Below, piece after piece: positions 12,332-35,919 of a stretch of 39,315 bases of DNA. Position 1 is the stretch's first letter; every line of letters starts with the position of its first letter. Source of the stretch: Candidatus Pacearchaeota archaeon (GTDB lineage: Archaea; Nanobdellota; Nanobdellia; Pacearchaeales; GW2011-AR1); assembly GCA_018304055.1 (NCBI GenBank), contig JAGVWY010000005.1, positions 1 through 39,315 on the forward strand, in the 5' to 3' direction. The notes beneath the pieces were generated by a model. That model saw only the letters and a program-made list of their open reading frames with translations. It made no database searches and was not told the DNA's origin. The translations under genes were made by a program, and so were the position numbers.

Positions 12332-12682
12332 TTATATATTTATAGTTATAATTAACTGATCTAAATCAACAATAGGCCTTAGTCTTTCTCTGCCTGATTT
12401 ATGAGAGCTAATTAACTCAATAAAGCCGTATTTCTCCAATAATTTAATATCATGCCTTACTGCTTTAAAATCCCTTCCTAATAGCTTTGCTAATTTATAG
12501 ATAGAATCAGGAGATTTGGTTTTACAAACGTGCAATAAACGAGCTTTTTCATTGCTTAATACCTGCCTTAAGTTTATTAATTCTGTGTTTTTAGAGCTTC
12601 CTTTTATTCTTTTAAATAACACTGAAAAAGTCCCTTCTTTTTCTGATATAGATATTGATTTTGTTTTTATTTTTTTAGCCAT
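12332..12682 (-). CDS. Winged-HTH transcriptional regulator (MarR/ArsR-like)
   Basis: SIYKLAKLLGRDFKAVRHDIKLLEKYGFIEL resembles an archaeal wHTH helix pattern. Confidence 0.7.
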   Translation of the reverse strand: MAKKIKTKSISISEKEGTFSVLFKRIKGSSKNTELINLRQVLSNEKARLLHVCKTKSPDSIYKLAKLLGRDFKAVRHDIKLLEKYGFIELISSHKSGRERLRPIVDLDQLIITINI

Positions 12683-12689
12683 ATCATAT

Positions 12690-12785
12690 GAAAACCTAAG
12701 GTTTTCCTAAACTCAAAATTTGAATGTGATTATTTTTTATATATTGACATTCAAATTTCTCGCAAGTCACCTTTCCTAATATTGC
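12690..12785 (-). promoter_or_regulatory. Family B structured leader, copy 1 (upstream of the HTH regulator)
   Basis: On the minus strand: TTAGGAAAGGTGACTTGCGAGA then AAATTTGAATGT(12758-12747)/ACATTCAAATTT(12727-12716), TTGAGTTTAG, GAAAACC-TTA-GGTTTTC, then ATATGAT and ATG. Blocks shared with 24892-24981. Confidence 0.75.
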
Positions 12786-23282: not shown

Positions 23283-23456
23283 TTTGTTATAATTTCTTAG
23301 TTATAACAGGTTTTTAAACTTTGTTGTTTTTGAAAATATAATATTTTATCACTTTTATCAGATAAAAATTTTCATTTATAGGAAACCAAAAAAAAGTCTT
23401 TTTGTTAATCTTTGTTTGTTATATCCGAAGAGAACAAGACTCTAATGTTTGATATA

Positions 23457-23545
23457 TAGAGAATTTTGAAAAACCCAAGAAATCAAAATTCTCTAAGAAG
23501 GACTTTGACGAATTTCCTTCGGAAAACGGGGTAAATCAAAGTCCT
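23457..23545 (+). repeat. Family A twin-hairpin element, copy 2
   Basis: TAGAGAATTTTGA(23457-23469)/TCAAAATTCTCTA(23483-23495); AGGACTTTGA(23499-23508)/TCAAAGTCCT(23536-23545); inner TTTCC-TTC-GGAAA. Confidence 0.75.
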
Positions 23546-23574
23546 GTATAGATGATAATTCAATTCGAGAATAA

Positions 23575-24745: not shown

Positions 24746-24883
24746 TTAAATAGCTTTAATTTTAACCACGTTTTTTCTTGGCTTGTAAAACATTTTTGAT
24801 CTGCAATTGGGACAGAGAAATCTCTTTTCTAAAGCTGTATGAGATATCTTCTTGCTGCACTTAAAACATTTATAGGTGACCAT
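24746..24883 (-). CDS. rpoP: DNA-directed RNA polymerase subunit P (missed by the ORF track)
   Basis: Reverse complement translates to MVTYKCFKCSKKISHTALEKRFLCPNCRSKMFYKPRKNVVKIKAI*, a 45-aa zinc-ribbon protein. Confidence 0.85.
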   Translation of the reverse strand: MVTYKCFKCSKKISHTALEKRFLCPNCRSKMFYKPRKNVVKIKAI

Positions 24884-24891
24884 TCTCGTAT

Positions 24892-24981
24892 GGAAACCTA
24901 AGGTTTCCCTAAACTCAAACTTTGACTTTGTTTTTTATTCATTTTGCCAAAGTCCAAGTTCTCGCAAGTCACCCTTCCTAA
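24892..24981 (-). promoter_or_regulatory. Family B structured leader, copy 2 (upstream of rpoP)
   Basis: On the minus strand: TTAGGAAGGGTGACTTGCGAG, AACTTGGACTTTG(24960-24948)/CAAAGTCAAAGTT(24930-24918), TTGAGTTTAG, GGAAACC-TTA-GGTTTCC, ATACGAGA, then ATG. Confidence 0.75.
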
Positions 24982-25065
24982 GAGTGATTTTCAATTTAAT
25001 TTTATTTATCTTCATTCTCGTATGAAAACTTTTTCTATTTATTATATATTACAAGCTTTTTAAGT

Positions 25066-25925: not shown

Positions 25926-26642
25926 TTATTTTTTCTTTTCTTGTTTTGCAGGGGATTTAGCAACGGGCTTTTCCGTAGTTGTTGAGGATTTTGCAGCAGC
26001 TTTCTGCTCTTTAGCTGGTGTTTTACCTGGTGCTGTAGTCTTATCAGTTTCTTTCGTTTCTTCTTCTGGTTTTGGAGCTGCGGCAGCGGCTTTAGCTTCT
26101 TGCACAGCTTTATATTCTTGAAAGAATGATTGGAGTGCTTTTCTCTTTTCACCATCAGTTATTTCTTTTCCTTCATTAATTTCTTCATCATATTTTCCTT
26201 TTTCTACTTCTTCTGTTATTTCTTTGGGATCTTTGTTTTCTACCAAAAGTCCCATAGAAGCGCAGCTTCCTAATATTGATTTCACTGCTTTTTTAAGGTT
26301 TTTTTCAAGCATACTCACATATTTTATTTTTGCTATTTTTATTACATCTTCAATAGATGCATTTCCTACTTTTGTTACAGAAATCTTGTCAGAACCTTTC
26401 TCTAATGAAAGTTCTTTTTTTAATAATTCAGAAATTGGAGGAGAAGACACTTTAATAGCAAATTCTTTTGTTTTTTCGTTAACATCCAGCTCTACTGGAA
26501 CTTTCATGCCCTTGAAGTTTTTCGTTGCTTCATTAATGTTGGAAATGACTTTTCCTAGGTTTATACCAATAGGTCCAAGCTGCTGAGCTACTGCCGGACC
26601 TGGTTTCATGTCTCCACCTTCAATTAATAATTTTATTTGCAT
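25926..26642 (-). CDS. rpl11: Ribosomal protein L11 (uL11) with long low-complexity C-terminal tail
   Basis: IEGGDMKPGPAVAQQLGPIGINLGKVISNINEATKNFKGMKVPVELDV...GSCASMGLLVE. Confidence 0.95.
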   Translation of the reverse strand: MQIKLLIEGGDMKPGPAVAQQLGPIGINLGKVISNINEATKNFKGMKVPVELDVNEKTKEFAIKVSSPPISELLKKELSLEKGSDKISVTKVGNASIEDVIKIAKIKYVSMLEKNLKKAVKSILGSCASMGLLVENKDPKEITEEVEKGKYDEEINEGKEITDGEKRKALQSFFQEYKAVQEAKAAAAAPKPEEETKETDKTTAPGKTPAKEQKAAAKSSTTTEKPVAKSPAKQEKKK

Positions 26643-26643
26643 A

Positions 26644-26686
26644 ATCTAAATCCAAGGAACCAAGTTTCCTTAGATGTATCCTCCTT
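26644..26686 (-). promoter_or_regulatory. L11 translation-initiation hairpin between a strong SD and the AUG
   Basis: Minus strand AAGGAGG(26686-26680) ATAC [ATCTAAGGAA-ACTTGG-TTCC-TTGGAT-TTAGAT, 26675-26644] T ATG. Confidence 0.6.
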
Positions 26687-26718
26687 CAATTGTCTTCGAT
26701 GTATCTTTCCTCAAATTG
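26673..26718. repeat. Imperfect direct repeat in the Spt5-L11 intergenic region
   Basis: GATGTATCCTCCTTCAATTG (26673-26692) and GATGTATCTTTCCTCAAATTG (26698-26718). Confidence 0.6.
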
Positions 26719-35620: not shown

Positions 35621-35764
35621 AGTTTATATTCTGAAAATCCAAAATGAATTAACCCAAGGCTATGAATCGTGGTTTCTGATAGCATCATATAACTATTAAA
35701 ACCAGTATCAAGACAGTATCAAGAAGAAAATCAATATCATTCATATTGACAGTTAAAGATATTA

Positions 35765-35902
35765 TAGGGAATTTTGAAAAAATAGGAATAACAAAATTCT
35801 CTAAGAAGGACTCAGAGAACAAGTTCTCTGATACATTCAAAATCTTCGATTTTGAAGTCTTTGACGAATTTTCCTTCAGAAAACTGGGTTATTCAAAGTC
35901 CT
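35765..35902 (+). repeat. Family A twin-hairpin element, copy 3, with two nested hairpins
   Basis: TAGGGAATTTTG(35765-35776)/CAAAATTCTCTA(35792-35803); AGGACT(35807-35812)...CTTTGA(35859-35864) with TCAAAGTCCT(35893-35902). The insert holds CAGAGAAC-AA-GTTCTCTG and TTCAAAATC-TTC-GATTTTGAA. Confidence 0.75.
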
Positions 35903-35919
35903 CTACAGGGAACCCGGAT

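Follow-up and report, generated by a model that had tools for sequence, protein, structure and literature searches.

The genomes of Pacearchaeota probably carry a family of short (about 45–135 nt), dispersed, mobile palindromic elements whose leader copies act as ribosome-binding sites with a folded spacer. Four properties of the family were established here, namely its dispersal, the covariation of its helices, its strict abutment of AUG codons on the same strand, and the complementarity of its 5' purine strand (S) to 16S rRNA. A preliminary description of the window, i.e., the whole 39,315-nt stretch of DNA analysed, had reported one structured element on the minus strand next to the start codons of two unrelated genes, encoding an HTH regulator and RpoP. 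Indeed, a repeat finder returned the two sites as a 101-nt repeat pair with 78% identity, and by our boundary only 1–2 nt separate either copy from its ATG. The leader is not confined to these two genes: a third copy in the window, of a divergent subtype and likewise on the minus strand, lies at 26650–26684, or 26641–26689 as delimited in the list below, and precedes the gene for ribosomal protein L11, and there are about 110 copies across genomes. The copies in the window, their parts and the adjoining genes are the following:

12680–12780, minus strand: copy 1, long form, upstream of the HTH gene (covariance model R1, 110 bits)
12769–12776, minus strand: copy 1, 5' purine strand S, GGAAAGGT, complementary to the 16S 3' end
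12715–12759, minus strand: copy 1, P1 hairpin GAAATTTGAATGT/ACATTCAAATTTT, 13 pairs, GA/GA flanks (folding, alignment)
12690–12706, minus strand: copy 1, P2 hairpin GAAAACC-TTA-GGTTTTC (folding, alignment)
12332–12682, minus strand: gene 3' of copy 1, winged-helix HTH protein (Pfam HVO_A0114, E = 3.9e-16), start codon ATG at 12682
24881–24982, minus strand: copy 2, long form, upstream of rpoP
24881–25015, minus strand: 135-nt unit containing copy 2 (99% identity with the rpoD unit, contig C45)
24971–24978, minus strand: copy 2, 5' purine strand S, GGAAGGGT
24917–24961, minus strand: copy 2, P1 hairpin GAACTTGGACTTTG/CAAAGTCAAAGTTT (folding, alignment)
24892–24908, minus strand: copy 2, P2 hairpin GGAAACC-TTA-GGTTTCC (folding)
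24965–24968 with 24885–24888, minus strand: copy 2, outer helix P0, CTTG with CGAG (alignment)
24746–24883, minus strand: gene 3' of copy 2, RNA polymerase subunit Rpo12/RpoP, 45 aa (E = 3.8e-07), start codon ATG at 24883
26641–26689, minus strand: copy 3, third subtype, upstream of L11 (covariance model R3, 58 bits); S GGAGGAT, hairpin ATCTAAGGAAAC-TT-GGTTCCTTGGAT, duplicated in part upstream
25926–26642, minus strand: gene 3' of copy 3, ribosomal protein L11 (Pfam)

Comparison with solved Rpo12 chains supports the identity of RpoP. An Rfam search of the window gave a single tRNA match and placed the element in no known family. Upstream of the L11 copy (26678–26712, minus strand) there is a partial tandem duplication, GAGGAAAGATACATC / GAAGGAGGATACATC, and a CTGCAAAGCAG hairpin.

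Read 5' to 3', the element consists of S, whose 5' end is a constant GG, followed by the outer helix P0 enclosing the terminal hairpin P2 (optionally with P1 and others), 0–2 nt, and the AUG. Copies 1 and 2 are of the long form; the search with model R1 uncovered a short form of about 49 nt that dispenses with P1 and comprises S (GGAAGGGUGA and variants), P0 (CUUGU/ACGAG) and P2, directly followed by AUG. Single-strand folding yields the P1 and P2 hairpins in both long copies, which fold better than dinucleotide shuffles (z of -2.8 for copy 1 and -4.0 for copy 2). As first described, the stem between the conserved blocks differs in sequence while its pairing is kept (AAATTTGAATGT/ACATTCAAATTT in one copy, AACTTGGACTTTG/CAAAGTCAAAGTT in the other), and the congeners G014 and G005 have copies with yet another P1 stem sequence and equal pairing. 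In an alignment of eight sequences from the same genome and its relatives, 93% of the cells are paired, and both helices are compensatory, with 24 double-sided changes against 9.9 ± 2.3 after shuffling, a signal that collapses when the alignment is slid by one column. Many copies exchange A-U for G-C at two positions of P2, and in some P0 is swapped as a unit (AGUCU/AGACU, GUCU/AGAC, AUCU/GGAU). Since additional hairpins and nested elements fall within P0, the distance from S to the AUG by way of P0 is constant. In the nested elements L305, L286 and L288, one element occupies the place of another's P2 hairpin. Several intergenic copies in G003 (L260, L269, L270, L271) are bracketed by an AT-rich inverted repeat of about 10 bp.

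Two other accounts of the structure were considered and dropped. The GA/GA step of P1 resembles a kink-turn, but the required C-stem is unpaired. A short ORF can also be seen in the 5' half, such as MKSKIKSKVIIRKGDLLGKP* in the copy that precedes Spt5 of G002; the reading frame shifts between copies and the stem changes are compensatory, and coding was therefore rejected as the main constraint. Short ORFs (MKINKIKLKITLRKGDLRELGLWQNE, MKSKIKSKVIIRKGDLLGKP) enter the element in G000 and G002 (window 24935–25015, minus strand; L202; L306), in frames that vary by copy.

The genome from which the window derives contains about 12 copies. A pattern search gave seven matches, of which inspection left six full long copies and one chance match, and all six full copies end beside an ATG; the one at C45:14633 has a shortened second copy directly after its ATG. 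With the 135-nt unit as query, the rpoP and rpoD copies are 99% identical and the remaining copies 77–91%. As the copy at rpoP is part of this unit, what is repeated exceeds the hairpins in length. The near-identity of the two units is a sign of recent duplication, and might suggest chance similarity or a tandem-duplicated ordinary operon leader. That explanation is so improbable that it can be set aside: the six full long copies together with covariation in relatives exclude chance, and the roughly 110 copies, spread over many genera and with compensatory changes, refute it as a whole.

Model R1 detected copies in 38 of 185 genomes of the family, while the short-form model R2 did so in 16 of 20 genomes of the same genus and 25 of 383 of the class; the third subtype (R3) comprises the L11 copy of the window and many copies in G004 and G006. 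Taken together, the copies found by the models are essentially confined to Pacearchaeota-type genomes, and in several species they number up to about a dozen per genome. A pattern with 29 specified bases matched only 21 stretches among 85,462 genomes, nearly all labelled Pacearchaeota, Nanoarchaeota or archaeon and one labelled bacterium, and it matched zero viral contigs. Exact 14-mer matches to viral contigs were spread through unrelated phage coding sequence and were discarded as chance. A covariance-model search of related genomes, the check suggested with the preliminary description, thus returned further copies, with covariation and with a constant spacing to start codons, and not the absence of copies, or the scatter without regard to start codons and without covariation, that would have spoken against the element. 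In the literature searched we found no dispersed element family of Pacearchaeota. Matches to P1 only, antisense to coding sequence (L178, L185, L186, L189, L193, L199), were left out of the counts. At these six loci (G000:C51) the genes contain, within the 5' part of their coding sequence and in antisense, a P1-like hairpin, GCGAGC..GAG, and the proteins begin like ..KSKRSQVTLFVIIAIV, possibly a palindromic peptide insert.

The position of the copies is strikingly one-sided. Among 111 distinct copies, 48 have their right end -1 to +2 nt from the ATG of an ORF on the same strand, and in five more the distance is 8 nt. These counts are mildly biased toward such copies because the models contained ATG columns, although many copies without ATG were still recovered. 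The same test applied to the opposite strand beyond the left end gave no ATG within 8 nt for any of the 111. No bases are conserved between the element and the ATG. The downstream genes are mostly informational (rpoP, rpoD, Rpb6, L11, Spt5, Rad50, EF-1beta, SerRS), and some recur, i.e., Spt5 in six genomes, Rad50 in five, L11, EF-1beta and SPP protease in four each, and SerRS in three. Pfam confirmed leader genes for L11, Spt5, a Rad50-like AAA protein, EF-1beta, SPP protease, SerRS, FttA/aCPSF1, Gins51, Rpb6, L18e, RpoD, DUF424, S8e, a Mre11-like phosphoesterase, aRF1, S6e, L10e, an RFC-like ATPase, H+-PPase, GAPDH, prefoldin, L37ae and S19e. The same gene carries the element in different genomes in 53 cross-genome pairs, where about 2.6 would be expected for the 75 clustered leader genes of 23 genomes if each genome had 1,000 genes; part of these pairs were probably inherited together. 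The subtype in front of L11 differs between species, being the third in G000 and G004 and the first in G002 and G005.

This recurrence of genes across species with different subtypes, the compensatory changes and the exact distance to the AUG all favour a regulatory leader, that is, a cis-acting RNA that would bind a protein or small molecule and coordinate, as one regulon, genes for transcription, translation and repair, the regulon having been assembled by duplication and spread. We nevertheless consider a regulon of this kind unlikely, given that most congeners have no element at the same gene, that the copies in tRNA introns and within ORFs retain the same structure, and that neither an invariant pocket beyond the S/P0/P2 core nor a ligand-related theme among the genes was found. 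The cis-acting RNA leader of the preliminary description survives in part: its structure, covariation, fixed distance to the ATG and association with transcription and translation genes hold, but not its interpretation as a two-gene operator or classical riboswitch.

The 3' end of the 16S rRNA in this genome is GGATCACCTCCTAT. S pairs with this tail at a mean of -10.7 kcal/mol, compared with -5.7 when S is shuffled and -2.9 in 23 genes of the window that lack the element; subtype S strands such as GGAAGAU pair with it weakly. For the whole element against the tail (helix 45 plus anti-SD), z ranges from about -0.7 to -4, and the signal comes mostly from the Shine-Dalgarno part. S together with the 3' arm of P2 resembles a sequence complementary to the 3' end of the 16S rRNA, helix 45 included.

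A Shine-Dalgarno strand lying 5' of a hairpin that ends beside the AUG is the layout of a split ribosome-binding site. In phage T4, a hairpin between the Shine-Dalgarno sequence and the AUG cuts the spacing from 22 to 5 nt in gene 38 and from 27 to 11 nt in gene 25 (PMC3014915). The Pacearchaeota element resembles this arrangement in that a hairpin between the two signals would shorten the spacing, and differs from it in being dispersed and archaeal and in holding extra hairpins inside an outer helix. S would thus double as a strong Shine-Dalgarno sequence, and P0 and P2 in the mRNA would loop out the spacer and bring S beside the AUG; with P0 closed, S would be a few nucleotides from the AUG irrespective of inserts in P0. 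The element apparently brings its own ribosome-docking signal, and the split arrangement would explain why gene-adjacent copies are placed in one orientation and at 0–2 nt. Insertion at a start codon may then have been tolerated or useful, so that copies were retained at informational genes. Little is known about the start of translation in these small-genome archaea, and a Shine-Dalgarno strand with a folding spacer that lands at start codons would show mobile DNA installing translation signals.

In leader copies S does not pair more strongly with 16S rRNA than it does in the others (p = 0.54), and hence the complementarity may be a property of the element and not a function of the leader. 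The same equality fits selfish palindromic repeats of the REP/MITE kind, for which the position at start codons would reflect insertion preference or survivorship and leave expression unaffected; so do the species-specific amplification and the nested and tandem copies, as well as those in tRNA introns, beside tRNAs and in ORFs. It is doubtful, in our opinion, that this is the full account, as one-sided placement at 0–2 nt without conserved intervening bases is hard to obtain by target preference, and the same informational genes are used repeatedly.

Several observations point to mobility, which is part of the split ribosome-binding-site reading that we prefer. Relatives are polymorphic for insertion at Spt5 and Rad50: the Spt5 element is found in 4 of 18 congeners with a readable upstream region (one degraded) and the Rad50 element in five congeners. 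At the Rad50 site, G019 has the element between an A-rich stretch and the ATG while G009 has none, with diverged flanks. Copies within one species share species-specific 5' hairpins, and tandem and nested copies occur. As with REP and MITE elements, there are several dispersed, near-identical copies per genome. The presence of up to about a dozen copies per genome, the species-specific forms, the absence from close relatives, and the nested, tandem and antisense tRNA-gene copies identify it primarily as a dispersed mobile element. Like REP/BIME and MITE sequences it is short, palindromic, multicopy and amplified per species, but it differs from them in its extreme one-sided placement before ATG and in having neither terminal inverted repeats in the copies inspected nor a linked Y1/RAYT transposase. 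Mobilisation by IS200/IS605 was rejected: the Y1 transposase is patchy, being missing from several element-rich genomes, and it is not flanked by copies.

Mostly outside the genus, antisense copies are found in tRNA introns, with the right end 1–2 nt inside the 5' splice site; the tRNAs include Gly(CCC), Gly(GCC), Ser(GCT), Ser(TGA), Leu(TAA), Thr(GGT) and Met(CAT), among others. The right end of the element therefore borders both tRNA intron boundaries and start codons. Copies in the tRNAs of relatives, as opposed to the window copies, lie in archaeal BHB introns at 37/38 (for example L224 Gly, L295 Gly, L292 Ser, L237 Leu); L224 is a tRNA-intron copy within the same genus, and one copy, L180, lies in sense orientation in a tRNA-Met intron. 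Other copies are immediately 5' of tRNA genes (L187, L245, L294, L289), and further ones lie in convergent spacers. Copies in tRNA introns and convergent spacers would be the same mobile element without a ribosome-binding role. According to Fujishima et al. (2010), as cited in PMC4090602, similar sequences recur at the canonical position in unrelated tRNAs as transposed introns of Thermoproteales. The two cases are alike in having similar introns across unrelated tRNAs at the canonical position, and unlike in that the Pacearchaeota family also precedes mRNA start codons, in the opposite orientation. With intron copies in the same family, it becomes possible to test a connection that has been proposed between mobile DNA and the tRNA introns of archaea. 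Related antisense copies at L262 and L273 lie within long ORFs, apparently as an in-frame translated peptide insert.

S also covaries with P2 as a mirror image. When reversed, S tracks the 5' arm of P2 (G opposite G; A or T opposite A) at 212 of 246 positions, compared with 170 ± 5.4 after shuffling (z = 7.8; 41 distinct pairs, the long and divergent forms partly assembled by hand). Interior positions give z = 7.5 and the direct orientation at most 3.1, and an earlier automatic set, which included interrupted copies (n = 42), gave 193 of 252 against 166 ± 5.1. Because the copies are related, shuffling overstates the significance of all these values. The lengths of the G-run and A-run covary, an arm G(m)A(n) being accompanied by S A(n-1)G(m), and multiple combinations of run lengths occur inside a single genome (G003, G012). 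Third-subtype copies, found later, obey the rule as well (17 of 19, by eye). Pairing of S antiparallel to the 3' arm of P2, as in a riboswitch-style alternative hairpin, was rejected, since it accounts for the A-run of S but leaves the G-run unexplained, and since L298 and L237 do not follow it; the mirror model accommodates both.

An antiparallel purine-motif triplex has the same code as this mirror rule. Intrastrand purine-motif triplex repeats occur in bacteria and reportedly do not form in RNA (PMC4666352), which would make the triplex a DNA-only feature. S lying in the groove of P2 as a DNA triplex may thus be the functional core of the element, for recognition or for replication stalling in mobility, a possibility that we take seriously while thinking it somewhat more likely to be wrong than right. 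In its favour are the contrast between mirror and direct orientation, the tracking of run lengths and the fit of the third subtype; against it, the kinship of copies inflates z, and the 5' GG of S and a 1-nt offset are left unaccounted for. The triplex is compatible with a mobile element carrying a ribosome-binding site and does not exclude it. As in E. coli BoxC and TM-ECO (PMC4666352), a short dispersed repeat has a purine third strand that mirrors a hairpin arm. BoxC is intergenic, has no strand bias and short loops, and follows the order pyrimidine-purine-third strand, whereas the Pacearchaeota element has its third strand 5', abuts start codons, and has a connecting stretch of about 8–10 nt with its own helix, exceeding the loops of 1–6 nt used in the ITxF search of PMC4666352. 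The mirror covariation is a natural, comparatively supported candidate for a function of DNA triplexes. Most tentatively, all these properties might be combined in a new class of archaeal mobile element, triplex-folding as a single strand, acting as a structure-gated ribosome-binding site at start codons and spliced out as a tRNA intron in the opposite orientation; if so, the informational genes of a DPANN lineage would have been rewired repeatedly by a mobile module for translation initiation.

Lastly, the window contains a separate repeat family on the plus strand (425–525, 23455–23553 and 35750–35910), with a stem GAGAATTTTG/CAAAATTCTC followed by AAGGACTTTG..CAAAGTCC and with an inner CCTTCGG hairpin; the copy at 35750–35910 has two additional hairpins.
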